The position numbers were made by a program, and so were the translations under genes. A stretch of 60,580 nt of DNA from Bacteroidia bacterium (GTDB lineage Bacteria > Bacteroidota > Bacteroidia > J057 > JAIXKT01), in NCBI GenBank assembly GCA_026932145.1, contig JAIXKT010000019.1, positions 53,723 through 114,302 of the forward strand, read 5' to 3'. Of the stretch, positions 4,986-56,928 are shown one piece after another. The notes under the pieces are model-generated. The model saw nothing but the letters and a program-made list of their open reading frames with translations. It did not search any database and was not told where the DNA came from. Numbering within the stretch: the stretch's first letter is position 1; each line of letters starts with the position of its first letter.

Positions 4986-5462
4986 TTAAAATTCCTCCCG
5001 CTCATCGAATTCGGATTTATCCTCTTCCCAGTCCTCGACCTCATCCAAATCATCAATTTCTTCTTCCAGAAATTCATCATCCACGCCTTCCTCCTCATCC
5101 AGAAAATCACCTTCCAGTTCATTGAGAAAGATCGCCTCCACTGCTTCCTGCTGTGTGGGCAACACATTTAGGACTTCATCCAGGCGGGAGATGGTAATCA
5201 GTTTTTCAACCTGCTCCTGAATTCCGGTAAGAATCATGATGCCCTTGTTATTCTGACACAGGCGATGGCCAATCAGAATAGCACTGAGTCCGCTGCTGTC
5301 GGCGTATTTGACAGCATTTAAATCCAGAATAATGTTGCGTACGCCCTCGGCATTATGCACCAAAAATTCACTCTTGAGTTTGGGTGCAATCCGGGAGTCA
5401 AGTTTCTCCTCCAGTAGTGTAAGCACTACATATTTTTCCTGTAAGTCAGCCTGATATTTCAT
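4986..5462 (-). CDS. STAS-domain anti-sigma-factor-antagonist-like protein with acidic tail
   Basis: Residues 1-100 form a STAS domain like those of anti-anti-sigma factors (SpoIIAA/RsbV class): the segment LDLNAVKYADSSGLSAIL contains the D-S-S-G-L site whose serine is phosphorylated in that family. After the domain comes a tail of about 45 residues made mostly of Asp and Glu (for example DEEEGVDDEFLEEEIDDLDE). The ATG at 5462 gives a start MKYQADLQEKYVVL typical of the fold; an ATG nine codons upstream is possible. It lies between purC (30 bp upstream) and rnz. No partner kinase or phosphatase gene is nearby, so which sigma or switch pathway it serves is unknown. The acidic tail may be for electrostatic binding, which is inference. 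Confidence 0.82.
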   Translation of the reverse strand: MKYQADLQEKYVVLTLLEEKLDSRIAPKLKSEFLVHNAEGVRNIILDLNAVKYADSSGLSAILIGHRLCQNNKGIMILTGIQEQVEKLITISRLDEVLNVLPTQQEAVEAIFLNELEGDFLDEEEGVDDEFLEEEIDDLDEVEDWEEDKSEFDEREEF

Positions 5463-5492
5463 AATGTGTTTCCGGTCTAAAATTATCAAAAA

Positions 5493-6455
5493 TTATGCGG
5501 AATAGACGCCCAGTTTTTTGAGTCCCTCATTTACATTTTGCTGAATGCGACTTTCGACCTCGGCGTAATCCGCTTTTTGAAACTTCCGCCCGGTCATGGT
5601 TTCATATAGCTGAATGTAGCGGCTGCTGACTTCTTCCACAAAAGCATCCGGCATAACAGGCGGAGTTTGTCCGTCCTTACCCATAAAACCCTGCTGCATC
5701 AGCCATTCCCGGACAAACTCCTTCGACAACTGACCTACGGGACGACCTTCCGGGAAATTCAGGGAATAATTTTCCGCCACAAAATAGCGAGAAGAATCCG
5801 GTGTGTGAATTTCATCAATCAAATGAAGTTCTTCCTCGAAAATACCAAATTCATATTTGGTATCGGCCAGGAGCAACCCTCTTTCCTGAGCCATTTCCTG
5901 GCCTTTGGCAAACAAGAGCAGGGCAAAGTGGCTGGCCTGATGCCAGGTTTCTGCATCCAGCAACCCGGAACGAATAATCTCATCCGGAGAGATATCGAGA
6001 TCATGCCCGATGGCAGATTTGGTTGTGGGGGTCAGAATAGGCTCTGGCAATTGTTGATTTTCAACGAGCCCATCTGGCAGTGTAGCCCCGCATATCACAC
6101 GCTTTCCTGCCTGATATTCACGCCAGGCATGGCCGCATAAATACCCCCTCACCACAAACTCAACGGGCAAGGGTTTACAAGCCAGACAAAGACTCACATT
6201 GGGATCCGGAACAAGGAGCAGATGATTGGGCATAATACTTTCCGTCGCTTCCAGAAAATAAGCAGCAAGCTGATTTAACACCTGCCCCTTGAAGGGAATG
6301 GTATTGGGCAAAATCACATCAAATGCAGAAATCCTGTCGGTGGCCACCATAACCAGAACGGTATCTTTCAGGTTATAGACATCCCTGACTTTGCCCTGAT
6401 AACGGGTAAAATCGTGGAAAAACTGTAAATGGGTAGAAGGAATTCCTGATTTCAT
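5493..6455 (-). CDS. purC: Phosphoribosylaminoimidazole-succinocarboxamide synthase
   Basis: SAICAR synthetase of purine biosynthesis, joining CAIR and aspartate with ATP. Motifs include TRYQGKVRDVYNL near the start (nucleotide-binding), ATDRISAFDVILPNTIPFKG, and VVRGYLCGHAWREY in the middle. The 320-residue length matches the longer Bacteroidota/yeast-like form rather than the about 240-residue enterobacterial one. The ATG at 6455 starts MKSGIPSTHLQFF; the longer in-frame extension to 6560 has no family similarity. The gene leads a minus-strand run with the STAS gene, rnz and the transporter, and is insulated from the upstream surface-protein unit by the terminator at 6607-6634. Confidence 0.95.
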   Translation of the reverse strand: MKSGIPSTHLQFFHDFTRYQGKVRDVYNLKDTVLVMVATDRISAFDVILPNTIPFKGQVLNQLAAYFLEATESIMPNHLLLVPDPNVSLCLACKPLPVEFVVRGYLCGHAWREYQAGKRVICGATLPDGLVENQQLPEPILTPTTKSAIGHDLDISPDEIIRSGLLDAETWHQASHFALLLFAKGQEMAQERGLLLADTKYEFGIFEEELHLIDEIHTPDSSRYFVAENYSLNFPEGRPVGQLSKEFVREWLMQQGFMGKDGQTPPVMPDAFVEEVSSRYIQLYETMTGRKFQKADYAEVESRIQQNVNEGLKKLGVYSA

Positions 6456-6606
6456 CAAACAAAATTGGAAATAATACTGAGGAGAAACAAATGGGCACCT
6501 GCCATTTTGAATCAAAAAATGGGTATGACACGATGAAACAAAGCCAAGGTCGAAATTCAATCTGGCATAACCCTATCAGAAAGCAGCTCAGACCATATAA
6601 AAAACA

Positions 6607-7552: not shown

Positions 7553-10500
7553 TTACTGAACGATCAGTTTACGAACAACACGGCCCTGTTCAGTACTCAG
7601 GTGCAGCATGTAGATACCGGCAGCCTGGTTCTGAATATTCAGTTCCACACGACCATTACCATTTACTACGTTCTGATATACAACCTGACCCTGAATGTTT
7701 TCGATGGACACGTTTACAGACTGATCAACACCGGCAACTTCCAGATTGAACAAACCGTTGGACGGATTCGGATACACACGGATTTCAGCAGCTTCCAGAG
7801 CGTTATCTACTGCAACAGCGTTAGATACAGTCTGTGTAGCATTCTGAATGTTACACTGGTTGCTGGCAGTCAGGGTTACCTGATAGATACCGGCATTAGC
7901 GTAAGTGTGAGTAGTATCCGCAGTAGTAGTAGTGAATACTGTACCATCACCGAAGTTCCAGGTGTAGCTAGTAGCACCTACGGAAGTATTAACGAAACGG
8001 TAAGTATTGTTACCCTGAGGAATAACGTTGAAAGCAGCATTTACAGGAAGATTATTCACTGTAACGGTAGCAGTACCAGTACCAGAACCAGCTCCACACT
8101 TATTCTTAATGCTTACAATGCTGTAAGTAGTGTTAGTGGTAGGAGCTACATAGAAATGGTACGGACTGCTCATGATACCGCTGATGGTGTCCATCATACC
8201 GCCATGGTTAACAACCAGGGTAGCAGGGAAAGAACCATTAACAGCCAGAGTCAGGGTAGCAGGAGTCATAGCGCAAATAGCCTGAGTACCGCTCAATGTA
8301 GCATTGAGGGAGGTGAAAGAGGTTACAGTAGCTACAACAGGTACAGCGTTAACCAGACCGGAAGGACAAACACCGCCGGAAGAGATACCAGTGATGGTGT
8401 AAGTGGTAGTAGCGCTTGGGAACAACGGAATCAATACTGTGTCAGCACCGCTCAGGTTGGAGATGGCGAAGTTATTCGTACCATCGAACATGCTCACAGA
8501 GTAAGGAGCCTGACCACCCTGGATGTCGATTTCCAGTTTGAAAGTATCACCTGCGTTGGTGCTTGTGCAATAAGTGATAGCAGAATCACCGGACAACAGA
8601 GAAACAGTAGCAGGAGTCTGAACGTTCACAGTTACGTTACCGTTGTTTGCATACAGTTCGCTGGAACAAGTTCCGGAAGTTACGCTGGCAAACAGGGTAT
8701 TCATATCGTAAGTGATATCAGAGTAAGGAGATACAGTCAGGAAGTAAGGATTGGCAGTGATACCGTTTACAGTGATTGGGGAACCACCTGCATCGTAAGT
8801 AAGATCCCAGGGAGCATTACCTTTTTCGAAGTCAACCTGCAGCATGGTAGAAGAACCCTGGCAGATGGTAGTCTGCTGATTCGGAGCCAGGCTAAGATTG
8901 GCACGAGGACGGGCATTGATAACATCGTGGATCAAACCAGAAACATTATCAAAGAAACCACCGGTATTCTCATTCTGAATGAACAAAGGCTTGAAGGCAA
9001 CGAGGCTTTCGTTAGGATACTCATTTACGAAGTCAGCGAAATCGCTCATGTTGATGTTATTGTAGTTACCATTTTCTGACTCTTCGTAGTAAATATCGTA
9101 ATCAGAAGGATCATCAACATTGCTGATCATGGCCCATACATTTACATAGTCATTACCACCGAAGTATTCGCGGCAGATGGTAGTATCACCAAACAAAGTA
9201 GCGGAAGGAGCCTCATTCTGGTAACCGTTGCTCATGTCAACATCGTATCCACCACCGTAGCTACCAATACCGCAGGTATTGTATACATTCAGGATAGAGT
9301 AGGATTTGTCAGAAACGGAGGTAGTGTATTCTCTTACAGACATTTCGTTTGTAGTAGAATTGATGATGGAAGTACCATCAGTGTAAGAGAAGGTGAACGG
9401 AGGCAGACCATCAAAATCCCAGCCTTCGAAAACTACCTGACCGGGAACCACATTCTGGAAACCTACAGAGAAGCTGGCGTATGGGGAATAACCCAGAGCA
9501 ACATTGGTCGGGTTGGCAACGGAATAACCGGAACCGGGAAGATCCGTAGCACGAACACGGAAACGATAGTTCTTAGAAGCATTGTAGTTCAGAGAAGACA
9601 TGTTCATGGTGAAAGTACCATTGTACACGGTATTACCCAGAACGCTGTCATTCTTAGCATCAATGATATCACCTACCCAGTTTCCTTCATCATCAGAACG
9701 CTCGAGGAGGAAGAAGTTGGAAGGAGAAAGAGTTGCACCGTAGTAGGAGTAAGTGATGGTAAACTGAGTACCAGTACAAATGGACAGGCTGGAAGGATCG
9801 TTGGTTACGAACACTTCTACTGTGTCACCACAAGTAGCGGCAAAAGTAATACCGGAGTTGTTTCCTTTGTCAGAAGCAACAGGAGCATTCAGGTTATTAC
9901 CGTTAGTAGCATCGATGTCCTTGAAGGAAACGAAATCAAAGCAATGATAGCCGGAAGTAGCGTAGAAGGAAGCAGAGTTACCATCCTGAGTGGAGTGTAC
10001 GCGTACTGTGTCAGTAGCAGTACCATTCAGAATGAACCTGGAAGAACCTACAGACTCACCTGGAGCGATGAACAGGTTGGTACCGGCACCGATTGTAGTG
10101 GAGTCGCTGTTGGTTGCATCAAAGCTACCATTGTCAAAGTAAATTTTACCGGCAGTTGCGCTGATGTTGGCAGTGCTGTACACACTCCAGTCACCATCGA
10201 AATGGAGGTTATTGGAAGCATTGGCAACAGAAACATTAAAGTGACGGGCATTTGTACCTGGCCAGTCAGTGCTTACATTCATGTTACCAGTCCAGGTAGA
10301 AGCCATGTTAATGGTGAAGTTGTTGATGCTGGCACCGGGAAGGTAAACATTTACATTCTGAGCTGCATCGGCAGGAGAACCGGAAACGGTCAGGTTGTTC
10401 CACTCAGTCCAGAATGGAGCAGAAATACCAGCGCTTACAGTTACGGAAGAACCGTCCATGTACCAGGAATTAGCATTGTTGATCGTCATGGCTTCAGTAC

Positions 10501-38899: not shown

Positions 38900-39032
38900 C
38901 TAGTGCCAAAATTTTGATCCTTAGGGAAGAAGAAGAAATACACAAGATTATAGCTATATTTTGTCTAATACTCTTGAAGTAGATAATGGATTACTTGGCT
39001 TAAGCTCAAGTAATACCAATTTGCCGGCATGA

Positions 39033-39233
39033 CTTTACCGTGGTTGCACAGGGCATGAAATGCTAAATGAGTTTGGCTTAGTAAATATGAATGCAAGGTT
39101 GTATGACCCTGTAGTAGGGATGATGCTCTCGCCTGATAATTATGTGCAAAATCCGAGTAATACACAAAATTTTAATAGGTATGCCTATTGTTATAATAAT
39201 CTGTTAGCCTATATTGATTCAGACGGACAGTAA
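39033..39233 (+). pseudogene. RHS-repeat core C-terminal remnant
   Basis: A 66-codon fragment in one open frame translates to the end of the RHS-associated core domain: LYRGCTGHEMLNEFGLVNM, then NARLYDPVVGMMLSPDNYV and QNFNRYAYCYNNLLAYIDSDGQ. Intact RHS proteins have this block (Y-R-G-[FY]-T-G-H-E, R-L-Y-D-P-x-x-G-R-x-x-S-P-D) just before a variable toxin. Here a stop precedes it and another directly follows D-S-D-G-Q, so neither the thousand-residue shell nor a toxin remains. It lies 133 bp after tRNA-Arg and is followed by a copy of the IS91-like end, so it is probably debris of an island. Confidence 0.85.
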
Positions 39234-39254: not shown

Positions 39255-39511
39255 ATCAAAAATAAAACTAAAAACAAAGAAAACAAGATAAGAAACAAGA
39301 AAAAAACGAACATAACCACAACACAAACTCCATAAAACACCCCTCAAAGGGTACTAAAAAGTACACTTGTTTATTGTTTTATAGCACAACTAATTTTTTA
39401 AAACCCCATAATATATTTTACTTGCAACTGAGCTCCGGAAGCTTTATTCAACCTGCCAAAGGCAGTCAGGCACAGGGTTAAATCAGACAGAGATTTGTTT
39501 AAACCCTATAT
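39255..39511 (+). repeat. Direct-repeat copy 1: 3' end of the IS91-like element
   Basis: This 257-bp stretch is closely similar to 49101-49339, which follows the IS91-like transposase, including AACACAAACTCCATAAAACA and CTCAAAGGGTACTAAAAAGT. It ends in an imperfect hairpin (GGGTTAAA ... TTTAAACCC) followed by TATAT and then GTTA at 39512. It has an extra CTGCC-AAA-GGCAG hairpin compared with the other copies. The transposase genes are absent, so it is a solo end. Confidence 0.85.
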
Positions 39512-39532
39512 GTTACCGGCTGGTGTCTGTTG

Positions 39533-40972
39533 TCACGAGTTGCGTTTTTGTTTTTGTAAAATTGTGTTCTTACCGACTGAATAAGCATAAACTGATGCAG
39601 GAATATATTTTAATTTTAAATTGTCTATATCTTTAGTTCCTTCTTTGTCAATGGTTGTGACTAATGCAGTTTGCAAGTTATTGTCCTTTAAAAATTGTAA
39701 TAAGGGCTTCAGGTCTCCGGGTTTTTCATAAAACTGATTGCTCCACTTTATTTCCACAGCCCATTGAGGTTTGAAGTTTTTGTCATCTAGTTTAACCATA
39801 TCTACCTCTCCCTTCTGCCATCTTGCATAGTAAGGAGTAAACCAATCTCTGTGAAGCCATTGAGCATAAATTGCCGTCTCAACCATATTGCCGATAAAAG
39901 GGTCTGTTGGTTGTAATGGAGAAAACAAGGCACTTCGCAATGAAGGATTAGTCAGATAAATCTTGAATTGTGTTGCTCTTTGAAACTGTTTGGGTTTGTT
40001 GGATATTTTATGAACCACCTTAATTAAAAATGCAGCTTCTAAATACTCAATGTAGCGTTTTATGGTATTCTTTTGAACTCCTGAGTTTTTACTTAATTCT
40101 TCAAGACTTACTTCTCCTGCGCTATTATATGCAATAGCAGTAAATAACGAATTAAGCTCTTGCACGTCTCTTATTCCATAAAGACTTGGCAAATCTCTCA
40201 ATAATACTTTGTCAATAATATCGCTTCTAATATATCGTCCGGGATTACTCTGAATTTTTTCAGAAAAAATTACTTCCGGGTAACCACCATAATTGATATA
40301 GTCCAAAAAATGCTTATTAAGTTCGTTGATATTATTGGTACTGTAAAATTTTGTCAAACTGCCTTGCCAGTCTAAATTTGTCTCTGTGATGAGTCTGTTT
40401 AATTGTTTCAAATGAAGAAACTCATTAAAGGTCAACGGAGGCAGCATGAAATCTGTGAAGCGTCCTGCTCCACTCTCATTACTTTTAAGTCTTAATGCAG
40501 CAGCAGCAGAACCCGAAACTACGAAGCGAGTATGAGGATAACTGTCAACTAAAGACTTAAGATGCACTTCCCAATCTTTTAAATATTGTATCTCATCAAA
40601 GAAGATATACCAACCTTTGAGACTTTCCTGTTTTGTTGCCTTTCGGCAGAAACTAAAAAGTTGCTCTAAGCTGATATTGTTGTAAATAGGCGTTTCAATT
40701 GAAATGAAAGCAACTTTCAAAGGGTCAATTTCATTCTCAAGCAGATTTTGAACAGCATGATACATCATTACAGTTTTACCAACTCTTCGTGGTCCCATTA
40801 GAACAACTGCTCTTCTAACACCGGTCTCTGTTACAAGAGGCATAAACAAGTCAAAATACAATCTCCTTTGCATGGAGGTGTAATACTCTTCTACTGCTCC
40901 AGTCACCCACCAAGGATTTTCAAATCTTAGTCGGTCAAGAACCTGTTCTTCGGAATATGGTAATAAAGCCAT
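39533..40972 (-). CDS. ATP-binding protein of the AAA_14/DUF4143 family
   Basis: A 479-residue ATPase. The Walker A motif is MGPRRVGKTVMMYHAV near residue 60, Walker B is WYIFFDEIQYLKDWEVHL near residue 125, and FVVSGSAAAALRLKS is the sensor region; the second half (RATQFKIYLTNPSLRSAL ... AIYAQWLHRDW ... GEVDMV) is a DUF4143 domain, which has a nuclease-like fold with E-V-D. Members are very common in Bacteroidota accessory DNA; their function is unproven. ATG 40972 was chosen because the family start is soon followed by LLPYSEEQVLDRL; the extension to 41023 is AT-rich leader. It lies alone between an attC-like site on its 5' side and the IS91-like end on its 3' side, as a cassette gene would. 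Confidence 0.88.
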   Translation of the reverse strand: MALLPYSEEQVLDRLRFENPWWVTGAVEEYYTSMQRRLYFDLFMPLVTETGVRRAVVLMGPRRVGKTVMMYHAVQNLLENEIDPLKVAFISIETPIYNNISLEQLFSFCRKATKQESLKGWYIFFDEIQYLKDWEVHLKSLVDSYPHTRFVVSGSAAAALRLKSNESGAGRFTDFMLPPLTFNEFLHLKQLNRLITETNLDWQGSLTKFYSTNNINELNKHFLDYINYGGYPEVIFSEKIQSNPGRYIRSDIIDKVLLRDLPSLYGIRDVQELNSLFTAIAYNSAGEVSLEELSKNSGVQKNTIKRYIEYLEAAFLIKVVHKISNKPKQFQRATQFKIYLTNPSLRSALFSPLQPTDPFIGNMVETAIYAQWLHRDWFTPYYARWQKGEVDMVKLDDKNFKPQWAVEIKWSNQFYEKPGDLKPLLQFLKDNNLQTALVTTIDKEGTKDIDNLKLKYIPASVYAYSVGKNTILQKQKRNS

Positions 40973-41114
40973 TTTAATAGGTTTTAATAGTGCAAAATTA
41001 CAAAAAATAAGATTATTATACAACTCTTATTTTTCAACATTGGTCACTTATAAGAAAAAATGAAGTCGAAATGGCTCTTAATTATCAAGATTAGGTGTCG
41101 CTAAAATACGCTTG

Positions 41115-41166
41115 CCATAACGGCAGCCTGTAAAAAACTCGTAGTAATTAAAACAAGCTGTTAATT
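41115..41166 (-). other. Short attC-like site G
   Basis: Read on the minus strand it is AATTAAC, a stem AGCTTGT/ACAGGCT with CTGCC, and then GTTATGG. The CTGCC-GTTAT end is shared with the better-supported sites at 57,880 and 58,836. It lies 140 bp before the ATPase start codon, as the border of a cassette would. The cassette's far end does not carry the matching CCATAAC, so support is weaker. Confidence 0.45.
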
Positions 41167-41220
41167 TTTTTGAAATAAAAATACAAATAAAAACTGATAA
41201 ACATCTAAAGCCGTTTAATC

Positions 41221-41284
41221 GAGCTCCGGAAGCTTTATTCAACACGGGATTAAATCAAAGCAGAGCTTCGTTTAATCCCTATAT
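41221..41284 (+). repeat. Direct-repeat copy 2: terminal hairpin only
   Basis: This 64-bp copy starts GAGCTCCGGAAGC, as in the other two, and ends with the hairpin GGGATTAAA ... TTTAATCCC plus TATAT, next to GTTA at 41285. It sits inside a T9SS-type cargo gene and supplies its stop codon (41279-41281). Confidence 0.85.
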
Positions 41285-41920
41285 GTTACCACTTGTGCCA
41301 TGTGTAATTTCTAACTTATTGGCAGGGCTTGCATTATTAATACCAACATTACCATTTCCTAAAATGCGCATTCGTTCAGTAGCATTCGTATTAAACAACA
41401 TAGGTAAATTCTCTTGCTGGTTAAAGATTGCATGACCGTTGCTCCCGCCTCCTAAAATACCAATTTGAAAACCATCGCTTGAGGTAGTGCCTGTGCCACT
41501 GTTGGTATATTGCATTCTTACTGCATTTGAACTACCATCGCTAATGTGTAATTTTTGTTGCCCAACTTGTGTTCCAATCGTAACTTGAATATTATCGAAG
41601 GTAGTTACAGAAGGTTCTCCGCCAAAAGAAATTAAGCCGTTGGTTGATGTAATATCGTCAGAGCCACTACCTGGGTTTCCACCCAACCACAAAGAGCTTG
41701 GTCCGACATGAATTCTTCCAAAAACTCTTAAACTATCAGTTGTTATTTGACCTTTTACATGTAAAGGAACTGTAGGATTATTTAAGCCTATCCCCACCTT
41801 TCTGAAAGTGTAATTTGTACTATCATCTGTAGAATGCCACTGAATAGTATCTTCTTGAGCTGAAACTTTTAATACTAGTATAACTAATATTGAAAAAAGA
41901 AATGTTGTTTTGTTTTTCAT
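41279..41920 (-). pseudogene. Truncated secreted tail-fibre-like protein
   Basis: A signal peptide (MKNKTTFLFSILVILVLKVSAQ) is followed by repeats of the form VGIGLNNPTVPLHVKG and VGINNASPANKLEI, which are typical of Bacteroidota secreted proteins resembling phage tail fibres (usually 400-1,000 residues, often ending in a chaperone-like or sorting domain). Here the protein stops after 213 residues at THGTSGNI, because the sequence runs into the 64-bp hairpin repeat, whose first bases supply a TAG. No C-terminal sorting domain is left, so secretion by T9SS should fail. Confidence 0.75.
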
Positions 41921-41932
41921 TGGATTTTGGGG

Positions 41933-42919
41933 TTAATTGGTTTTTAAAACAATATGATTCGACTCATTGAATGTTTTGGTATCAAAAATTCGAAGAATAT
42001 AAACACCAGGTGTTAAATTTTCCGTATATAAAGTAAATTCGTTTTCACTGAATTCTTCACGAATTATTGGCTTCCCTATGATGTCAAAAACTGTAATTTT
42101 TTTTAGACTCAAATTATTTAAAAATAATTTAATTGAATTAGAAAATGGATTAGGATAGAATTCAAATTTCTCAACTGAACTGTTATTTAAATTTGTTATT
42201 GTACAATTTTGTGAGTAATTGTTACAAAATAAAGAGTCAATAGATACACAAACATCATCAATATAATAATAAGAACCAGATGTTGCAATTGATGTAGTTA
42301 AATGACTGGTATCAACGTTTGACTGGTTGTAAAAATTACCAATTGTTAAATAACTGTATGAAGAATCTGCAATAAATGATCCATTAACTTGAACCCAATT
42401 ATTTTTATCAGAAATTATACTATCACTTACAATATGTGAAAAATTCCCGATAGGATACATTAGTGTTGTATCAGTATAATTCCAAGTTGTAAAAAGTATA
42501 CCTAATTTGTTTGTTGCTAGGGTAACAGTGTCAGCTAGAGATACTTTAAATGAAACAAAATACTTTGTGCCTATAACTAATTGGTTGATCAATTTGGCTG
42601 AAATAAATTCTCTTACACCGCCAAACGACAAATATGGAATTATTCCAACATACGCCTCACAATCAGGATTTGCTGTATTTTGATTACCAAATAAATTGTT
42701 AGGTATTGAAACGTTGCTATTTATAGGTGATAAACGGTGAAAATAATCTGGTGTACCATAGCCCGACCTCTGCCAATATTTAGCTCTTTTAATTTGGAAA
42801 GTATATGAAGGAAATGTTACTAAAGTATCCTCAAAACTTGGATTAGGCACTAAATTAACTTGTGCTTTTGCAATAAATACAGTAAAAAATAAACATAAAA
42901 TAAGGAGGTAGTTTTTCAT
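41933..42919 (-). CDS. T9SS type-A sorting-domain protein
   Basis: A 328-residue secreted protein with signal MKNYLLILCLFFTVFIAKAQ. The mature start VNLVPNPSFEDTLVTFPSY and the internal WQRSGYGTPDYFH are common in Bacteroidota proteins with a carbohydrate-binding-like/galactose-binding-like N-terminal domain. The C-terminus (KFEFYPNPFSNSIKLFL ... GVYILRIFDTKTFNESNHIV) is a complete type-A T9SS sorting domain. It lies 13 bp upstream of the truncated gene and one base after the 66-codon fragment, all on the minus strand, probably in one transcript. Specific function is unknown. Confidence 0.82.
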   Translation of the reverse strand: MKNYLLILCLFFTVFIAKAQVNLVPNPSFEDTLVTFPSYTFQIKRAKYWQRSGYGTPDYFHRLSPINSNVSIPNNLFGNQNTANPDCEAYVGIIPYLSFGGVREFISAKLINQLVIGTKYFVSFKVSLADTVTLATNKLGILFTTWNYTDTTLMYPIGNFSHIVSDSIISDKNNWVQVNGSFIADSSYSYLTIGNFYNQSNVDTSHLTTSIATSGSYYYIDDVCVSIDSLFCNNYSQNCTITNLNNSSVEKFEFYPNPFSNSIKLFLNNLSLKKITVFDIIGKPIIREEFSENEFTLYTENLTPGVYILRIFDTKTFNESNHIVLKTN

Positions 42920-42920
42920 G

Positions 42921-43121
42921 TTAATTTGATTTAGGGTTGATAATAAATTTATATGGCTTTATTGATGAATTATCTGTTTTAAAAATTAAAGGTTGATAGT
43001 TGCTTGTACCAAGCCAATCACCTGTTGTTGCTGCATTGCCCCTCAATTCCCAATAGGTCTGGGCATTAGCAGCATTAAAAATTAATGCAAACATTACAGG
43101 TAATAAAATTTTAGATTTCAT
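42921..43121 (-). pseudogene. N-terminal fragment of a secreted tail-fibre-like protein
   Basis: A 66-residue frame with a signal peptide (MKSKILLPVMFALIFNAANAQ) and the sequence YWELRGNAATTGDWLGTSNY followed by QPLIFKTDN. This block (W-x-L-x-G-N-x-x-T, F/W-L-G-T, PL-x-F-K/R-T) is the usual start of the same secreted family as the truncated gene at 41279. The protein ends 20 residues later, so it is most likely a broken copy. Together with 41279-41920 it may be parts of one ancestral gene split by rearrangement; the gene between them argues against a simple frameshift. Confidence 0.6.
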
Positions 43122-43133
43122 ACTGTTTTGGTT

Positions 43134-44585
43134 TTAGTGATTAATAATAATTTTTTTCGAAATTGATTTACTATTTGAAGTTATTTGAAGAAAATAAATA
43201 CCATTAGGTAATTGACTGGTGCTTATATTTTGAATTAATTGATTCCCGCTAAAAAATAAAACTAATTGTCCTTCATAATCATAAAATAAGTAATGATGAT
43301 TTTCTGTAAATTTGTGATTTATTGTAATATAATCATTTGCTGGATTTGGGTAAATTGAAATTAAATTGTCAGAAAGATTCAATGAATTGTTAGAAGTGAC
43401 AATGTTATTAAAATAATAGTTGGGATAAATAGGCATACTAAAATTACAGGGTCTTTGCAGTGCCATTGCATTATATTCAAAAGTGCAACCTGCACCTAAT
43501 ATGTTTGGCTGGTGAATGATATGTATACTATCTGTAAATCCTCCAGTTTTTGATACATATATTTTACCATCTGGGCCTAATTGCATGTGTCCTAAACCCT
43601 GCAATACCGGGGGGCCATAATAGATTTGCCAGGAGTAAATCGAATTTGATATTGCGGCAGAGTCATAAATAGAAACGTCTATTTGTTGAATACAGTTGTT
43701 GCCTAAACCTGTTACTAGGCATAAATATAAAATTTTACTATTTGGAGAAAATTCAAAACCATAAGTAAAATAATTGCTTCCAGGTCCAATGCTATCGTTA
43801 TTAGGAATAATTTGATTTGAAAATTGACCTGTCATTTTATCGAATTGATAAAATGCATAGCTATCCTTTACAAAGATTGATCCGTCTGGAGAAAATCGGC
43901 CGCTACCATTCATTCCTCCTTCTCCAAAATTGGCTACGACAATATTTGATGTATCAGGTCCAATATTTGTAATTGGTATAACAATCAATTCTCTTGTGTT
44001 TTGTGGAGGAGGAAAGTATTTTGAATAAGCTAACCAGTAATCCACATTATTCCCATGCTTGGTAACTGCCATACCCTGATAAGTATCAGTCATAACTAAA
44101 ATGTTTTTCTGCCCAGCTACCACTCCACCTTTTCCATTATCCAATGTCATATCCACTAATGAATAACGTAAACCATTTATACACTGGTCGGCTACGCAGC
44201 CATTAACAAATACAAAAAATTGTGTACTACTACCAGGTCTAGGAATTATTTGTGAGGATACTTTTGCATTTTTATCACACAACAAACCTGCCCCATTCAG
44301 CATAGGTTGGTGCAGGGCATTCCACAAGGTATCACCATTGCAATAAAACAATAGATTACCATCCGTATCGCTCATGCAGGAGTTTCCTTCAAAGGTAATT
44401 CCGCTACTTCCTGTAAACACACTAGCTTGATAATTATTGTTTTTGTCAAAATTTATGCCAGCAGCATGTCCAAAACGCCAATTTATGGTTCTATTTAACT
44501 CAAAACCTTGTGAAAAACAGTCCAAATTGTATATACACAAATTAATTATTGTCAATAAAATTGATTGTAATGTATTTTTTTTCAT
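43134..44585 (-). CDS. T9SS type-A sorting-domain protein with beta-propeller-like repeats
   Basis: A 483-residue secreted protein with signal MKKNTLQSILLTIINLCIYNLDCFSQ. The mature part (WRFGHAAGINFDKNN; TDGNLLFYCNGDTLWNALHQ; FSPDGSIFVKDSYAFYQFD; FSPNSKILYLCLVTGLGNN; LGPDGKIYVSKTGG) has the FSPDG/LGPDGKIY pattern of WD40-like beta-propellers. The C-terminus (ISIYPNPANDYITINH ... GIYFLQITSNSKSISKKI) is a type-A sorting domain. It is the first gene after the conserved 180-bp leader that also precedes the T9SS pair at 55 kb. Strongly AT-rich codons separate it from the core T9SS genes of the same window. Confidence 0.85.
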   Translation of the reverse strand: MKKNTLQSILLTIINLCIYNLDCFSQGFELNRTINWRFGHAAGINFDKNNNYQASVFTGSSGITFEGNSCMSDTDGNLLFYCNGDTLWNALHQPMLNGAGLLCDKNAKVSSQIIPRPGSSTQFFVFVNGCVADQCINGLRYSLVDMTLDNGKGGVVAGQKNILVMTDTYQGMAVTKHGNNVDYWLAYSKYFPPPQNTRELIVIPITNIGPDTSNIVVANFGEGGMNGSGRFSPDGSIFVKDSYAFYQFDKMTGQFSNQIIPNNDSIGPGSNYFTYGFEFSPNSKILYLCLVTGLGNNCIQQIDVSIYDSAAISNSIYSWQIYYGPPVLQGLGHMQLGPDGKIYVSKTGGFTDSIHIIHQPNILGAGCTFEYNAMALQRPCNFSMPIYPNYYFNNIVTSNNSLNLSDNLISIYPNPANDYITINHKFTENHHYLFYDYEGQLVLFFSGNQLIQNISTSQLPNGIYFLQITSNSKSISKKIIINH

Positions 44586-44786
44586 TCGCGAAAATTTTAT
44601 TGGTATAAATTTACATTATTTATGATAAAAAAACTAAACATTAAAAATTTAACAATTAAGTAATAATATCCTTCGACTAAATCAATATAAGTAATGCAAA
44701 TGAATACTTTTTATCTTCATATGAGTTATCCCATAAAGCTTTTAAATGATTTGCATGTTTTAACCTAAAAGTCCGATTAACTCATA

Positions 44787-44967
44787 ACTTTGGGGTTGGT
44801 GTGCGGTTGATAAATTTTGGCTCTTTTACATTTTTATTGCGCTGGCTTATTGTGGTTGGAAAAATGGGAAAGTGCCAAAATGTGCGGCTGGGTGCGCGGG
44901 GTTAGCTGTCCTTTTATGTATACACTGTCTGTCTATAGTTGCACGTTGCCAAAGGGTTTCTTATAAC
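44787..44967 (-). repeat. Conserved cassette leader, copy 1
   Basis: Clearly similar to 55233-55410 on the same strand. Read on the minus strand, both begin with GTTATAAG and lead, after about 200-400 bp, into a T9SS cargo gene. Shared patches include AAAAATGTAAAAGAGCC and AACCGCAC. In one copy the patch holds an open frame (55186-55380) but the same frame is broken by a stop here, so coding is uncertain. A 116-bp part is repeated exactly at 46656-46771. Confidence 0.75.
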
Positions 44968-45049
44968 GTTTTCGGGCTTAGCGTGGAAGGCGATGTTGAT
45001 GCGTTTCACTGTCAGCCTACAACAAAGATATGAAAAAGCATTGAACTTT
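44961..45049 (-). other. Truncated attC-like site F
   Basis: Minus-strand reading gives the right half of an attC-like palindrome: GCCTTCCACGCTAAGCCCGAAAAC then GTTATAA. The matching left half is missing; the IS1634-like element begins at 45050 instead. A TATCTTTG box (45030-45023, minus strand) lies in the segment next to the IS. Confidence 0.5.
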
Positions 45050-46655
45050 CCTGACTTGTCCACTTTAGTGCAACAAATCAATTTTAGCTAATAACTCTTC
45101 CAATTCTTTAGTGACTTTTCCCTTAACGATAACTTCTTTTTGAGTTAGTTTGTTTTGCATTTTGGCATCTGTAACTTTTTTGGTTTCTGTTATAAAACGT
45201 CTTATTGACAAGCCCGTTTTGATTTCAATATGTTTTGATATTGTTAGCGCTAAAAAGCAAATGAGTATATGAAGTTTTACAGGTTCATCTTTAAAATGAA
45301 ATATAGGTCGAGTCTCTAGGTCGGACTTTGCCACCCTAAATGCTTGTTCCACTTTGTAAAGCTGATGATACCTTTCAATAACCATATTAGTGGGCAAGTC
45401 TTGCTCTTCTAAGTCAGTGTAGTAGCCTTTAATACCCAAGAGTTTTGTACTCTTCTTGATGAGTTCCTCATTAAGCCCAAGTTTTTCATTGTGTGTCTTA
45501 ACGAACTTTGCTTTTGTGTTTTTTGATGGTGATTTTAAGATGTTTTTGGCTTTTAAAATCTGCTTTTCCATTTCATACTTATCCTTTCTGTATCGCGCAC
45601 TTGAGAAACTGCAAATAAGATGTCCCTTGTCAGTATGGAGCCTGACAGCTTTGCCTTCTTCTCGCTTAATTTTAGCATCTAGCTCATCAAAGATAGCTTG
45701 CGGTAAATTACCTAATCTAGCACCTACAATGTAATGAATTCCGTGCGATTTTAACTCTCTAATATTATCGTTGCTTATCATGGCTGCATCAGCAACCACT
45801 GTAAAGGAGCTAACTTTATTTTTTACAATAAACGTTTTTACTACCGGCAAAATGGTATGTCCTTCGAAGGTATTACCAGGGAAAATATCAAAGGCAATAG
45901 GGAACCCATCCTTACTTACCATTAGCCCAACGACTATCTGAGGTTGCTGAGATTTACTGTCTTTTGAAAAACCTGTTTTGCGCAATTCATCATCTTCAAA
46001 ACTCTCAAAGTATAGGGTTGTAACATCATAAAAAAGAAGAGAATAATCAAAACCATATTCTCTTTTTGCAAAGTCATTAACTTTTGCAATGGCAAGGTCT
46101 TTCAAAGAGTTCCATTTGGGAGCTTCCTTATAGTAGTTTTGCCTTCGATGTTTTATGCCAAAGTACGTTTCAATAAGCTCTATGGAACGTAGCTTAGAAG
46201 CAGGTTCAAGTATTCTGATGGTTATTAAATCTTTGAATAAACAAGAAGTAAGTTCTTCAATGCCAAGTTGAGTAATTAATCGCTGAATAGTATCGTAATA
46301 AAAACGATAGTAAAAACCCACGCATTCATATTGTTCGAGATAAGAATATGCTCCAGACTTCGAAGACGGAAACAAAGATGCTTGATTGGAATAATCCACA
46401 ATAGACTGCTCTGCCAGATGTTTTAAATGATTAAGTTCGTCCGGAGTGGATGCTGAGCCCAAATGTTTTACGATAACTCGCTTTCGATTATGCAGGTAAT
46501 AAACTTGAATGGCAATCTTTCCAGAACTTGTTTTGACACTTCTGTATTTTAGCATGTTGAAGACCTTAGTGCAACAAATGTAGCACTAAAATAGTTTTAA
46601 TACACTGAATTGCAATGTGTTGTAAATTTTACAAAAACAGGGTGGACAAGTCAGG
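45050..46655. mobile_element. IS1634-family insertion sequence (IS4 superfamily)
   Basis: A complete 1,606-bp element bounded by perfect 14-bp inverted ends CCTGACTTGTCCAC (45050) and GTGGACAAGTCAGG (ending 46655), with one transposase gene filling it. No target-site duplication is seen directly at the borders. Instead a 116-bp segment to its right (46656-46771) is repeated exactly at 44853-44968 on its left. Confidence 0.92.
45065..46555 (-). CDS. IS1634-family transposase
   Basis: A 496-residue DDE transposase. The N-terminus (KTSSGKIAIQVYYLHNRKRVIVKHLGSA) and the core with FYDVTTLYFESFEDDELRKTGFSKD (first Asp), FTVVADAAMISNDNIRELK (second Asp) and YYTDLEEQDLPTNMVIERYHQLYKVEQAFR (the Y-x2-R-x3-E-x6-K-like signature) are those of IS1634 in the IS4 superfamily. 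The reading frame is intact, so the element may be active. It covers the element from 15 bp inside the left end to 100 bp inside the right end. Confidence 0.94.
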   Translation of the reverse strand: MLKYRSVKTSSGKIAIQVYYLHNRKRVIVKHLGSASTPDELNHLKHLAEQSIVDYSNQASLFPSSKSGAYSYLEQYECVGFYYRFYYDTIQRLITQLGIEELTSCLFKDLITIRILEPASKLRSIELIETYFGIKHRRQNYYKEAPKWNSLKDLAIAKVNDFAKREYGFDYSLLFYDVTTLYFESFEDDELRKTGFSKDSKSQQPQIVVGLMVSKDGFPIAFDIFPGNTFEGHTILPVVKTFIVKNKVSSFTVVADAAMISNDNIRELKSHGIHYIVGARLGNLPQAIFDELDAKIKREEGKAVRLHTDKGHLICSFSSARYRKDKYEMEKQILKAKNILKSPSKNTKAKFVKTHNEKLGLNEELIKKSTKLLGIKGYYTDLEEQDLPTNMVIERYHQLYKVEQAFRVAKSDLETRPIFHFKDEPVKLHILICFLALTISKHIEIKTGLSIRRFITETKKVTDAKMQNKLTQKEVIVKGKVTKELEELLAKIDLLH

Positions 46656-46771
46656 TGGTTGGAAAAATGGGAAAGTGCCAAAATGTGCGGCTGGGTGCGC
46701 GGGGTTAGCTGTCCTTTTATGTATACACTGTCTGTCTATAGTTGCACGTTGCCAAAGGGTTTCTTATAACG
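46656..46771 (-). repeat. 116-bp exact direct repeat flanking the IS1634-like element
   Basis: This segment is identical to 44853-44968. It starts exactly at the right end of the IS and ends in the TTATAAC of attC-like site E. It is the distal part of the conserved cassette leader, cut by the IS. Confidence 0.9.
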
Positions 46772-46895
46772 GGTTGCAGATTTGCGATGGGCGGGCTTTT
46801 CACCACAAATGTTGATGCGAAGCACAAAACTTTCGGCTACCACTAAACTGTCTGCGGAGCACGAAACCCCGCCTATTGCAAATGTGCTGTTGAAC
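46764..46895 (-). other. attC-like site E
   Basis: A 132-bp imperfect palindrome. On the plus strand it starts TTATAAC and ends GTTGAAC; the inner arms GCAGATTTGCGATGGGCGGG and CCCGCCTATTGCAAATGTGC pair with three to four mismatches. Size and layout fit an integron attC. The cassette lying to its right would have to end in GTTGAAT at 49,292-49,298, which differs by one base. Confidence 0.7.
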
Positions 46896-46974
46896 TAAAC
46901 CTTCGGTAGCCACAAACAAAACAAAAATACACATATATCTCGTATAAACAAACTCACTTTAAATAAAAAATATT

Positions 46975-47883
46975 ATGAGTTTACAAAAAAAGCGATACAA
47001 TACCATTGTATCACAAGCCAAACAAAACGTGATAGGCTTTTCATCGGCCTATCAAAAATTTTTAGAACGTGTAAGTATTGATCAAAACAGCAAGAGCCTG
47101 ATTACGAACTACAGTCGTAGCATAGCAGCTATTGCCTTACACTTTAACCGTGTGCCTCATCAAGTAGGTGTAGATGAAATCAACGGATATTTGTATCGAA
47201 TGATTCACCAGGAAAAGCAATCCATCAGTTATTTTAAACAAGCGGTGTATGGTTTACGGCATTGGTTTAGATTGTTTGGTATGGAAGAAAAAGCTATTCA
47301 AATGCCAAGCATTAAGAAAGAACAAAAACTGCCGGTAGTTTTATCAAAAGAAGAGTGTAAAGAACTATTTAAAACACCACGCCTCTTAAAGCACCGATAC
47401 CTGCTTGCCTTTGCTTATGGCTGTGGTATGCGGATGAACGAACTGCGTATGCTTAAAATAGCCGATGTTGATTTACAACGCAAACTCGTTCATATCAAAA
47501 ACGGTAAAGGTAAAAAACAACGCTATGTTGTTTTATCTCAACTACTCGCACAAAAATTTGAAATGTATCTCAAAGAAGTAAAACCCAAAGTATATTTATT
47601 TGAAGGACAAACCCCTAGTGAACCCATGGGCGAACGAAGCATACAATATGTAATTAACGAAGCCCTGCAAAAAACAAATATTAAAAAACAAGTAAGTATG
47701 CACACTCTCCGCCACAGCTTTGCCACACATTTGCTCGAAGATGGCATTGATGTACATTCCATTCAGCGTTTACTAGGACATAGTGATTTACGAACAACGA
47801 TGGTTTATTTACATGTAGCTCAAATGAAACTTCGCCCTGTTCACAGTCCATTGGATAGTTTATATAACTTACCACTTGAGTAA
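46975..47883 (+). CDS. Tyrosine recombinase of the IS91-like element
   Basis: A 302-residue tyrosine recombinase. The N-terminal SAM-like domain (residues 15-105) is followed by the catalytic domain with the Arg in AYGCGMRMNELRMLKIAD, Lys in IKNGKGKKQRYVVL, H-x-x-R in MHTLRHSFATHLLEDG, His in RLLGHSDLRTTMVYLHV, and Tyr in the latter. All catalytic residues are present. The extra helix between patches II and III that marks integron integrases is lacking: only about 50 ordinary residues lie there, as in XerC/D. The gene overlaps the transposase gene by 8 bp, the arrangement known from IS91-family elements of Bacteroidota, so it belongs to the element. Confidence 0.9.
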   Translation: MSLQKKRYNTIVSQAKQNVIGFSSAYQKFLERVSIDQNSKSLITNYSRSIAAIALHFNRVPHQVGVDEINGYLYRMIHQEKQSISYFKQAVYGLRHWFRLFGMEEKAIQMPSIKKEQKLPVVLSKEECKELFKTPRLLKHRYLLAFAYGCGMRMNELRMLKIADVDLQRKLVHIKNGKGKKQRYVVLSQLLAQKFEMYLKEVKPKVYLFEGQTPSEPMGERSIQYVINEALQKTNIKKQVSMHTLRHSFATHLLEDGIDVHSIQRLLGHSDLRTTMVYLHVAQMKLRPVHSPLDSLYNLPLE

Positions 47884-49042
47884 ACCAACTTATGAGTTGG
47901 CAACTATCATTGCAGAGTACAAAACTACATTTACACAAAAACATCAGCCCTTAAAATACCATTTAAAAGTACTCAATGCCATTGAGCATTGCCGTACTGC
48001 TTATTTTGGAGGTCATGTAGATAAATGTAATTCATGTAATCATATACGCATTAGCTACAACTCTTGCCGTAACAGGCATTGCCCTAAGTGCCAAAACACC
48101 AACAAAGAACGTTGGATAGAAGCACGCGAAAGAGATTTATTATCTACAACTTATTTTCATGTGGTGTTTACCCTGCCACAGGAACTAAACACGTATTGCC
48201 TTAAGTACCCTAAAGACTTGTACGATATTTTATTTGCTTCAAGTAAAGAAACCATTGAAACATTTGCAAATGACCCTAAGCACTTGGGCGCACAAACAGG
48301 GATGGTAAGCGTACTTCACACATGGGGGCAAAACTTATCACTGCATCCGCATGTGCACATGATTGTTCCCGGAGGAGGAATAACACCGGCAGGTTATTGG
48401 AAAACGGCAAAGAGCAAAGGAGAATTTTTGTTTCCTGTAGATTCAATGAGCATAGTTTACAAAAACAAGTTTATGGAAAAGTTGATACTGTTTTTGAAGA
48501 AAGAAAAGATATATCTCGATGTTCAGCTAAGAAGAAAACTCTACCAACAAGAATGGGTAGTATATGCCAAACAACCCTTTGGTGAACCAAAACAGGTAAT
48601 TGAATATTTGGGTAGGTATTCTCACAAGATTGCGATTAGTAATTACCGCATAAAAAATGTGAGCAATGGTAAAGTAAGTTTTACTTACAAAGATTACGCA
48701 CATGGAAATGTACAAAAACTCATGACTTTAGATGCAGAAGAATTTTTGCGTAGGTTTTGTTTACACATCCTTCCGCCAAAGTTTATGAAAATACGTCATT
48801 ACGGCATTTTGGCAAGTCGTTGCAAACCCATGCTTCGCAAGCATCAATTTACACAGGGAATAATCATGCCAACCATAGAAAAGAAAACATGGAAAGAGAT
48901 TGCTAAAACAAAACTGAATTTTGATGCAGATAGCTGCCCACATTGCAAAACAGGAAAGATGATTAGGGTGTTTAGTTTTGATACCAATGCGCCACCGGAA
49001 ATTCTTCAACTCATTCAACATCAAAAAAAGATGAAAAAATAA
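47876..49042 (+). CDS. IS91-family transposase (HUH, Y2 type)
   Basis: A 388-residue rolling-circle transposase. The N-terminal zinc-binding domain has CNSCNHIRISYNSCRNRHCPKCQ split as C-x2-C ... C-x3-H-C-x2-C near residues 48-75; the HUH motif is in LHPHVHMIVPGGG near residue 155; the catalytic tyrosine region is VIEYLGRYSHKIAISNYRI near residue 240; and a C-terminal C-x2-C (CPHCKTGKM) follows. It starts at a TTG that overlaps the recombinase stop, so translation is coupled. The frame is intact, so the element may be functional. Confidence 0.93.
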   Translation: MSKPTYELATIIAEYKTTFTQKHQPLKYHLKVLNAIEHCRTAYFGGHVDKCNSCNHIRISYNSCRNRHCPKCQNTNKERWIEARERDLLSTTYFHVVFTLPQELNTYCLKYPKDLYDILFASSKETIETFANDPKHLGAQTGMVSVLHTWGQNLSLHPHVHMIVPGGGITPAGYWKTAKSKGEFLFPVDSMSIVYKNKFMEKLILFLKKEKIYLDVQLRRKLYQQEWVVYAKQPFGEPKQVIEYLGRYSHKIAISNYRIKNVSNGKVSFTYKDYAHGNVQKLMTLDAEEFLRRFCLHILPPKFMKIRHYGILASRCKPMLRKHQFTQGIIMPTIEKKTWKEIAKTKLNFDADSCPHCKTGKMIRVFSFDTNAPPEILQLIQHQKKMKK

Positions 49043-49100
49043 TTTAGGAACATCACCGTATTTGCTTGCAAAAAGCGAACAGGCATTGTATTGAACAAAC

Positions 49101-49339
49101 ATCAAAAATAAAACTAAAAATAACTAAAACACGATAAGAAATAAGAAAAAAACAACCATAAACACAACACAAACTCCATAAAACACCCCTCAAAGGGTAC
49201 TAAAAAGTACACTTGCTTATTGTTTAAAGGCACAACTAATTTTTTAAAACCCCATAATATATTTTACTTGCAACTGAGCTCCGGAAGCTTTATTCAACAC
49301 AGGATTAAATCAAAGCATAGCTTCGTTTAATCCCTATAT
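49101..49339 (+). repeat. Direct-repeat copy 3: 3' terminal region of the IS91-like element
   Basis: Starts 58 bp after the transposase stop. It is nearly identical over most of its length to 39255-39511. It ends in the hairpin GGATTAAA ... TTTAATCC with the inner arms AAAGC/GCTT, then TATAT, directly before GTTATAA at 49340. Confidence 0.88.
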
Positions 49340-49420
49340 GTTATAAGCTGCCAATTACGCCACAATGCTTTCAAAGGTCAAAATAAAGCACTTACTCTGC
49401 GCTGAACCTGTGCGGTTGGA

Positions 49421-55232: not shown

Positions 55233-55410
55233 ACTTTGGGGCTGGCGTGCGGTTGGTGAATTTGGGCTCTTTTACATTTTTATGTGCCGTTGCCTGTTGT
55301 GGTTGTGAAAATGGAAATGTGCCTAAATGTGCGGTTGCGCGCGTGGGCTTTTTTGGTTGAAGGTTGCTCCTGTCCGTCATGTTCGCAATGTCCTATTGGT
55401 TGCTTATAAC
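55233..55410 (-). repeat. Conserved cassette leader, copy 2
   Basis: Homologous to 44787-44967 (same strand, same position after GTTATAAG and before a T9SS gene). Here a 64-codon frame (55186-55380, minus strand; HLGTFPFSQPQQATAHKNV and KEPKFTNRTPAPKYR) is open; in copy 1 the matching frame reads HFGTFPFFQPQ, stop, then KNVKEPKFINRTPTPK. Either a small protein or a conserved RNA/DNA element. The function is unknown. Confidence 0.7.
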
Positions 55411-55535
55411 GTTTGGCAGCTTGGCGAAGTGGCGGATTTTGAAGCACTTACTTTCATTTTAGCACTAATGCTTATTTGAAAACCAAATGTTCAATTTAGC
55501 ACCGAACCCGCCATTTTGCCAAACTGCTGTTGTGC
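55404..55535 (-). other. attC-like site A
   Basis: Plus strand: TTATAAC, then arms CAGCTTGGCGAAGTGGCGG and CCGCCATTTTGCCAAACTG pairing with few mismatches, then GTTGTGC. Length 132 bp. On the minus strand its GCACAAC is the exact complement of the GTTGTGC that opens the cassette at 56803, and its GTTATAA is matched by TTATAAC at 49346-49340. Confidence 0.85.
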
Positions 55536-55546
55536 GTTCGGCATAA

Positions 55547-55999
55547 TTAATTCAAAAGTTCCCATTTTTCTTTATAAATATCAACGTTATCTCTGAAAGA
55601 CCTCATATCATTGTCATTGTGTTTTTGACCATTTCTTCCCGGTGTGTCTAACCAAGTTTGATGATTGTTTCTAACATTTTCAGCTAATTCAATACTAGGT
55701 ACAATATAAAAATCTGGTCTTTCAAATTCATCTTTAAGCATAACAAAAATATAAAAAAGGTCTTTACTCTTTATGTTTTCAGCCTTTTTATTTAATGGCC
55801 ATTTTTTTGATTTATTTTGAATTGTTTTTACTTGTATTGCAAATGTTTTAAATCCATTTGGTTCACAAGCTAATATGTCTACGCTATCATTATTTCGTAG
55901 TGTAATAGACGCCATAAAACCACGTCTTGATAATTCAGCTGCTACATAATATTCACCTGCAATTCCTGTAATTCCTTTGGAAAGTCTATTTGATATCAT
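55547..55999 (-). CDS. Putative PD-(D/E)XK nuclease
   Basis: A 150-residue protein with the core of the PD-(D/E)XK fold: the helix GITGIAGEYYVAAELSRRGF with Glu, the strand SVDILACEPNG with Asp, and FAIQVKTIQNKSKKWPLN with Q-x-K, in the order E-D-QxK near residues 15, 38 and 55. Similar small proteins are common in accessory DNA of Bacteroidota, sometimes as DUF4365-like or restriction-like nucleases. ATG 55999 overlaps the stop of the upstream gene in an ATGA, showing coupling; the in-frame ATG-less extension to 56023 is not needed. It ends 12 bp before attC-like site A. A defence role is possible but unproven. Confidence 0.7.
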   Translation of the reverse strand: MISNRLSKGITGIAGEYYVAAELSRRGFMASITLRNNDSVDILACEPNGFKTFAIQVKTIQNKSKKWPLNKKAENIKSKDLFYIFVMLKDEFERPDFYIVPSIELAENVRNNHQTWLDTPGRNGQKHNDNDMRSFRDNVDIYKEKWELLN

Positions 56000-56700
56000 A
56001 AATGTATATTCTTGTAAAACCAACCTATTGATTGACTTAAAATTGGTTTTGTTGAAACAGTAAATTTGTCTGATGGAAATGTATAGTCAATTTGCCCAAA
56101 CTCATTTTTTATAACAATTGCGTTTCCTATTATTTCAAGTTTGCCAACAGTTTCAAAATTGTTTGACGCTCTTAATACTTCCATATTTTCAGGATTATAT
56201 GTTTGTTCATCTGTCCACATTTCATACTTTCCCTTAATTCTATCTTGTTTACCACTTTCTTCTGTGTAATTTTGATAATCGTATTCAGTAAGTTTAATTA
56301 GGTTGCATATTTTAATAATTTGCAAACCGTTTGTAACTGGCGGATTTCCGAATTCAAGTTTAGCGTTTAATGATTTTTCTAAATCTTGTTTTGAATAACG
56401 AAGTTCGTCTGGTGTTACGCCTTGTTTGTTCAATGCGATGATGAGTTCATACAAAACATAATCTCTAAAATCTTCGTGAAGAGTTGTAAGATGAAGTCTA
56501 AACCAAGGATATTTAGAATTGATTAATTGAAAAGGTTGGTCGAAATTTTCGTATTCGCCTTTTTCGTTCACTTCTAATCCTTCGTCTGTCAAATCCATTT
56601 CGTTGTGATGATAAATGAATTTTTCTCCGTTTCGGTTTCGTTTGCGTTCAATTGTTAAGCTTCCGCCTTCTGCTAAAATTTCAAAAACTGTTTCTGTCAT
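55996..56700 (-). CDS. Hypothetical protein, partner of the nuclease
   Basis: A 234-residue protein without signal peptide or membrane helix. The start MTETVFEILAEGGSLTIERKRNRNGEKF resembles the small Bacteroidota proteins found in mobile DNA, and the region with FRLHLTTLHEDFRDYVLYELIIALNKQGV looks like a helical segment. No catalytic motif could be recognised. It is the first gene of its cassette, about 100 bp after attC-like site B, and overlaps the nuclease gene by 4 bp, so they probably act together. I do not assign a function. Confidence 0.7.
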   Translation of the reverse strand: MTETVFEILAEGGSLTIERKRNRNGEKFIYHHNEMDLTDEGLEVNEKGEYENFDQPFQLINSKYPWFRLHLTTLHEDFRDYVLYELIIALNKQGVTPDELRYSKQDLEKSLNAKLEFGNPPVTNGLQIIKICNLIKLTEYDYQNYTEESGKQDRIKGKYEMWTDEQTYNPENMEVLRASNNFETVGKLEIIGNAIVIKNEFGQIDYTFPSDKFTVSTKPILSQSIGWFYKNIHL

Positions 56701-56796
56701 ATTTTATTTTTCATCAAAGTTAGTTTGTCTTTACGTCAAAATGTGTCGTCCTATTTGTCAATGTTGAGTTTTGTGCGACTGCTCGGAAATACTGAC

Positions 56797-56928
56797 GCAC
56801 AACGGTTCGCGTGTATGTGCAGTAGCGGATTAGAAACACGTTCCTGTCCGATTAGCACAAGGTTTCTTAGAGGCACAGACCTTCGATTTACCACTTCACC
56901 CGCTATTGCTACATACACGCTGTTATGC
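56797..56928 (-). other. attC-like site B
   Basis: The strongest palindrome of the set: GCACAAC, arms GTGTATGTGCAGTAGCGG and CCGCTATTGCTACATACAC (one extra base and one mismatch), then GTTATGC; 132 bp overall. On the minus strand its GCATAAC is the exact complement of GTTATGC at 57886-57880, and its GTTGTGC is matched at 55535-55529. Confidence 0.9.

Follow-up and report, generated by a model that had tools for sequence, protein, structure and literature searches.

Elements of the IS91 and ISCR kinds are described as moving by rolling circle, with an oriIS and a terIS end; the target of IS91 is a tetranucleotide (GTTC/CTTG) that stays intact, insertion taking place immediately 5' of it, and the IS91 family is not known to have terminal inverted repeats. 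IS91 elements and integron cassettes, as a rule treated as separate families, meet in a single hairpin in a 60,580-nucleotide stretch of a Bacteroidia bacterium genome (GenBank assembly GCA_026932145.1, contig JAIXKT010000019.1, forward-strand positions 53,723 to 114,302), the whole of which is called the window below. It carries an element of 2451 bp, TTGAAC ... TATATG (46890–49340, plus strand, as are the other features located below unless stated otherwise), with genes for a tyrosine recombinase and an IS91-family HUH transposase, and with ends that are integron-like attC half-sites. Judged by comparison with its relatives, this is probably a two-enzyme mobile element of Bacteroidota that resembles an integron cassette in its construction and inserts at attC-like sites, its own recombinase joining the ends; a part for the HUH enzyme is proposed less firmly. 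With the element comes a candidate for the enzyme that moves cassettes in Bacteroidota.

Connections between such systems have been approached from several sides. A 2025 paper describes attC sites that lie at ISCR28 genes or immediately behind them and, in the part available, asks whether these genes are shuffled as cassettes (PMC12772301), an attC adjoining a gene end being shared with the present element. In Bacteroidota, homology-free integration of a resistance gene is known from a 2026 paper on aph(3')-IVb in Riemerella anatipestifer, which has a 140-bp attC-like 3' stem-loop comparable with those found here; unlike the present case, no recombinase is identified in the available part of that report (PMC13148043). 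Hardly any integrons are reported in Bacteroidetes in the available part of the IntegronFinder 2.0 paper (PMC9024848). No description of the element was found in the literature searched, which omits most subscription papers and all preprints.

The limits of the element are set by the identity between its two full copies, which ends at GTTGAAC on the left and TATAT-GTTA on the right, together with a G|TT crossover that, for the window element, is borrowed from the empty aadS site of a relative. The second full element lies at C19:118139-120589, with both proteins 100% identical to those of the window copy, and a third left end is found at the end of contig C19. The left end, GTTGAACTAAACC (46889–46901), an attC R'-type half-site and an imperfect inverted repeat of the right end, is the same at the three C19 left ends, each of which is directly preceded by a hairpin site of its own, built as TAACG-arm-loop-arm-GTT and unlike the other two. 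The right end is an attC-like hairpin (49292–49340; box ATTCAAC, stem-loop, spacer, G) supported by its DNA fold and by covariation. The two half-sites read G|TTGAAC and ATTCAAC-hairpin-G. Beyond the right end stands the right half of the target site, TTATAAGCTGC (49341–49351), which has its pairing partner in the left site's CTTATAAC box and fits the R-TTR-G(11) consensus of right flanks. Both complete copies in the source genome adjoin attC-like sites of a gene-cassette array, each placed with the hairpin of a native site on one side and that site's gene-end box on the other. The recombinase gene and the left-adjoining attC-like site were absent from the original prediction, which had been made from the letters of the window, and were found here.

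That prediction had described a mobile hairpin, shared with an IS91-like element, in repeats at 39255, 41221 and 49101 that all end TATAT-GTTA. A whole-genome search for the hairpin returned five copies, three in the window plus C19:120525 and C17:1-47 (at a contig edge), and a sixth, weak match of 19 bp (E 0.115). All five copies bear out the described ending, continuing CCCTATAT-GTTA, and the link to the IS91-like element stands as well, the third window copy (49101–49343) being the 3' end of the two-gene, transposase-bearing element. The suggested check of all genome copies for flanks that vary beyond GTTA gave five copies with five different flanks (CCGGCTG, CCACTTG, TAAGCTG, CAGGCAG and TAGCCAG). 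Four of the five copies lie on C19 and two ends fall at contig ends, which might suggest segmental duplication or an assembly artefact; this is rejected as highly improbable, since the flanks switch exactly at the junctions and other genomes show the site both empty and occupied, with precise boundaries.

The hairpin at 49292 folds well as single-stranded DNA (z -4.0 for the plus strand, -4.7 for the minus strand), and its stem, in which an A.C mismatch is conserved and a bulge of two bases can be seen, is maintained among relatives. In an alignment of 40 of the 49 prepared right ends (60 having been located), 93.8% of the 673 pair cells hold a standard pair, where shuffles give 68.9%; the covariation score of 0.589 compares with 0.127 for shuffles and was attained by 0 of 500 of them. 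The compensatory arm changes noted earlier are present in the 39255 copy (GGGTTAAA/TTTAAACCC), and the suggestion that the minus strand reads with attC-like ends is upheld. A known RNA family is rejected as an explanation, only three tRNAs in the window reaching threshold.

The position of the crossover is given by an aadS cassette whose attC-like site is uninterrupted in the relative G060 (GATG-TTGTACG, locus L121) and is split twice on Myroides odoratimimus p63039 and once on Myroides albus pMA84474, the occupied site reading GATG-TTGAAC...TTAGTTA-TTGTACG. The flanks of G060 and p63039 match at 98.4% over 128 bp on the left and 99.9% over 910 bp on the right, and comparison of the empty with the occupied site places the insert exactly between G and TT, its last base, here A, coming from the element and no base being duplicated or lost. 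Six plasmid records carry the site, four unsplit (Bacteroides twice, Empedobacter and Riemerella) and two from Myroides; one unsplit record is 100% identical across the insertion point, and the similarity of the four starts at the opposite box, as a native cassette boundary predicts. With so precise an empty site, the mechanism can be tested directly.

A second line of evidence comes from the right junctions of relatives, where an intact GTTA target would put the target's own base before TT. The base found before TT is A at 26/57 junctions and G at 31/57, yet none of 34 intact attC-like sites begins with A (30 GTT, 3 GTG, 1 GTC and 0 ATT, read from a list covering 56 of the 57 matches to the site model R1 introduced below, with L066 omitted), which speaks against such a target; a Fisher test run on 31 intact sites gave p = 1e-6. 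All five source-genome copies have G here, and because the window copies end in G the G|TT test does not apply to them directly. On the evidence of these comparisons, the crossover, demonstrated in relatives, is of the integron type G|TT and not an insertion before intact GTTA, and the GTTA of the source genome is a composite of G from the element and TTA from the target. The earlier proposal of an oriIS with GTTA as its tetranucleotide target accordingly falls: the aadS sites show G|TT insertion with an element-borne last base, and GTTA as an intact target is ruled out by the empty site.

The recombinase (302 amino acids, XerA/IntI-like, 46975–47883; Pfam Phage_integrase 1e-38) matches the NCBIfam models for XerA at 1.2e-54 and integron integrase at 1e-52, both under the curated cut-off, and the alignment shows no variation at its catalytic residues R, K, H, R, H, Y. 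Its nearest solved structures are archaeal XerA (4a8e, 5hxy) and IntI4 (2a3v), with which it shares core-binding and catalytic domains and catalytic residues; it differs from them in its linkage to an IS91 transposase, and between two aligned blocks it is ~42 residues shorter than IntI4. Four stretches in viral contigs searched with the recombinase fit a pattern, and none was confirmed. The transposase (IS91-family HUH/Y2, 388 amino acids, 47876–49042) scores 431 bits with NF033538 (2.3e-129, cut-off 125) and carries the Pfam domains Y2_Tnp and Zn_Tnp_IS91, its HUH and YxxxY residues being invariant in 12 relatives. Like IS91 elements, therefore, the element has an HUH/Y2 transposase with a hairpin downstream of the transposase gene; it differs from them in its second gene, in complementary end boxes where the family is not known to have terminal inverted repeats, and in a crossover at G|TT of attC-like sites, shown in relatives, in place of insertion before an intact tetranucleotide.

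The pairing of the two genes is a regular feature. A scan of named genomes found at least 80 loci with the transposase, and among the matches listed the recombinase gene lies directly upstream in 78/80, the exceptions being L057, with an apparent recombinase remnant, and L090, which starts inside the transposase. A single recombinase-only candidate, L127, is cut by a contig end; here, on contig C25 of G118 (L154/L127), an element left end follows a perfect palindrome downstream of a recombinase gene of the type resident near arrays, at the contig end, and the palindrome could mark an attI-like site.

Ends of the Bacteroidota type read GTTGxAC(T)AAACC on the left and x'CAAC-hairpin-TTAGTT-R|TTR on the right, the constant left G being partly built in by a search pattern that demands GTTG. 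Both ends were located at 41 loci (L024, L028, L029, L035, the second copy of the source genome and L096 having been dropped), and at 38 of them the end bases x and x' are complementary; permutation gives a mean of 19.9 and, over 10,000 rounds, never more than 30. An attC-like hairpin passing the scan's threshold abuts the left end in 23/51 cases, while 1.8% of 1273 GTT positions elsewhere in these loci and 0.5% of 1275 shuffled flanks pass it; this count omits duplicates (L024, L028, L029), false left ends (L092, L117, L120), a misplaced one (L053) and ends whose flank is shorter than 165 nt. Right flanks show RTTR with G at position 11 in 44/52, and a minus-strand reading frame ends within 160 nt of the junction in 35/49, mostly within 30 nt; a longer plus-strand frame is present in 8/49 and neither in 6/49.

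The sites entered by the element were modelled as R1, a covariance model built for this analysis from 19 attC-like sites, 18 of them left flanks of elements, and distinct from the IntegronFinder model. Its alignment predicts a 22-pair stem between nearly invariant AAC and GTT boxes, and compensatory double changes occur at 16 of the pairs. Since the training sites are mostly left flanks, R1 matches at left ends are partly circular; matches elsewhere are unaffected. In the source genome and the Bacteroidota-type loci there are 57 matches in 56 sequences, 55 on the element's strand and two, on the element-free L020, on the minus strand. With all 55 of the former on its own strand, the element faces the opposite way to native cassettes and goes in at the gene-end box.

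Within the window, the attC-like site entered by the element and ending at its left end (46762–46895) scores 112.5 bits with R1; it belongs to the training set and was also found independently by a scan for hairpin arms. Two native-array sites without an element lie at 55402–55535 (101.7 bits, E 1.8e-22) and 56795–56928 (87.8 bits; in the training set, and also found by the arm scan). These two flank the minus-strand cassette frames at 55547–56700, and the cassette's two boxes, GTTGTGCG and CGCACAAC, are complementary at 8/8 positions; with ordinary cassettes bounded by complementary-box sites, the window holds a cassette array of the integron type. Scoring 150 of 1482 candidates in the source genome gave at least 54 R1 places at E ≤ 0.1. 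A group of at least two attC sites with no IntI, the sites being called here by R1, is the pattern of clusters of attC sites lacking integron-integrases (CALIN), and the source genome shows it: none of its proteins passes the IntI cut-off, the profile matches breaking at ~182-236, where the IntI insertion lies. A complete integron is not recognised, no IntI passing the cut-off in the source genome and attI not having been sought. The element shares with integron cassettes and CALIN the AAC...GTT boxes, the covarying stem, complementary cassette ends, the G|TT crossover and arrays of genes each followed by a site; it differs in carrying its own recombinase and HUH transposase in a genome with no IntI above the cut-off, and in its inverted entry at the gene-end box.

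Beyond the source genome, R1 sites at E ≤ 1e-6 occur in 100 of the 149 genomes of the relatives set (the source included) and are widespread in the class, despite the near absence of Bacteroidetes integrons in the available part of the IntegronFinder 2.0 paper (PMC9024848). Near some of these arrays stands another recombinase. On contig C15 of the source genome (L020), a gene for a 384-residue tyrosine recombinase (5437–6591) is divergent from cassettes with attC-like sites at 8410–8541 and 9521–9656, and recombinases of 360–400 residues like it lie within ~10 kb of R1 sites in 5/8 fetched regions of relatives. The C15 protein may be the resident integrase of an IntI-free type of integron. Next to the window element, a 117-bp cassette tail is present twice at 100% identity (44852–44968 and 46655–46771), the copies diverging directly after CTTATAACG, as a cassette boundary would, with an IS1634-family element (transposase at 45065–46555) between them.

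A resident recombinase of this kind might move the element in trans as a passive cassette, the element's own enzymes being cargo or serving other steps, and a comparable reading is raised for ISCR28 in the available part of that study (PMC12772301). The divergent gene on C15 and its counterparts near R1 sites are consistent with such a role. However, an enzyme shared with native cassettes should give the same orientation, and the element is always inverted and enters the gene-end box, native cassettes joining at the other box; the retention of the recombinase gene in nearly all listed loci also argues against a passive passenger, which makes this account rather improbable.

Movement by the HUH transposase alone deserves somewhat more credit, and is still considered unlikely. 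The element would then be of IS91 type, with the hairpin as oriIS, a short TTR motif common in attC boxes as target, and the recombinase gene an accessory, for example a resolvase of cointegrates or circles. A clear IS91-family transposase with intact motifs, the hairpin at the 3' end of its gene and the 41221 copy at GTTA within a gene all agree with this, and an enzyme cutting R|TTR would yield identical junctions. It does not predict the complementary end boxes of 38/41 loci, the preference for attC-like hairpins or the fixed orientation, and insertion before an intact GTTR, the manner of IS91, is contradicted by the aadS site.

The integron-cassette-like, two-enzyme reading is accordingly preferred, the comparison of relatives having established where the crossover lies, that the end boxes are complementary, that attC-like sites are preferred and that the orientation is fixed, and the element's own recombinase is the most likely agent of insertion. 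It would act on the folded single strand of the right-end attC, joining the element to its target; the HUH transposase may, more speculatively, use that hairpin as the origin for single-stranded copies of the element, which would provide the folded substrate. After insertion the neighbouring gene would keep an attC-like site, now made of the element's hairpin, and seeding of attC-like sites at gene ends by the element end, as putative recombination sites, is therefore plausible. Tentatively, and with appreciably less assurance than for the two-enzyme reading itself, such a self-propelled cassette, copied out by its HUH enzyme and pasted into attC by its recombinase, might, by depositing an attC hairpin wherever it inserts, build and mobilise IntI-free arrays, including resistance arrays, across Bacteroidota.

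Several observations weigh against the preferred reading. The recombinase is without the IntI-specific insertion of the catalytic domain, which is called essential for integron function in the available part of one study (PMC8138268); inverted entry at the gene-end box is unlike an IntI cassette; the junctions by themselves are also compatible with an HUH enzyme recognising TTR; and the resident recombinase near arrays could be the acting enzyme. The transposase is found at E ≤ 1e-60 in 13 of the 149 genomes, nine of which also have R1 sites at E ≤ 1e-6 and four of which have none at that threshold. Left ends fall under the hairpin threshold in 28/51 cases, some loops exceeding the length allowed in the scan, and longer sites at L053, L077, L091 and L093 were picked up by R1. 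Outside Bacteroidota, where the recombinase-IS91 gene pair also occurs (L081, L089, L110, L111, L112, L117, L118 and others), the right end is often CTATTCAT, 20 loci gave 3 weak R1 matches, and no clear flank motif was seen by eye. Finally, the 41221 copy cuts short the reading frame 41279–41920, which ends within the hairpin, and so does not stand at a natural gene end.

The setting of the element among resistance genes is best seen on the Myroides plasmid NZ_CP013691.1 (43979–60286; L162, L163), where four copies lie among tet(X2), catB, aadS (twice), blaMYO-1 and blaOXA, most of the resistance genes being oriented opposite to the elements.

The two remaining window copies of the hairpin are solo right ends. 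That at 39255–39515 (~260 bp, 85% identity over 262 bp, with a compensated stem) is older and diverged, and that at 41221–41288 covers 68 bp at 97% identity; the R1 search of the window gave no attC-like site beside either. Both are most likely remnants of older insertions, and truncation may account for them in place of the one-ended transposition proposed earlier. Upstream of the first, between a tRNA cluster (Ser, Pro, Arg) and the 39255 copy, the window holds at 38900–39232 the 3' end of what appears, from the sequence read by eye, to be an RHS-type gene.

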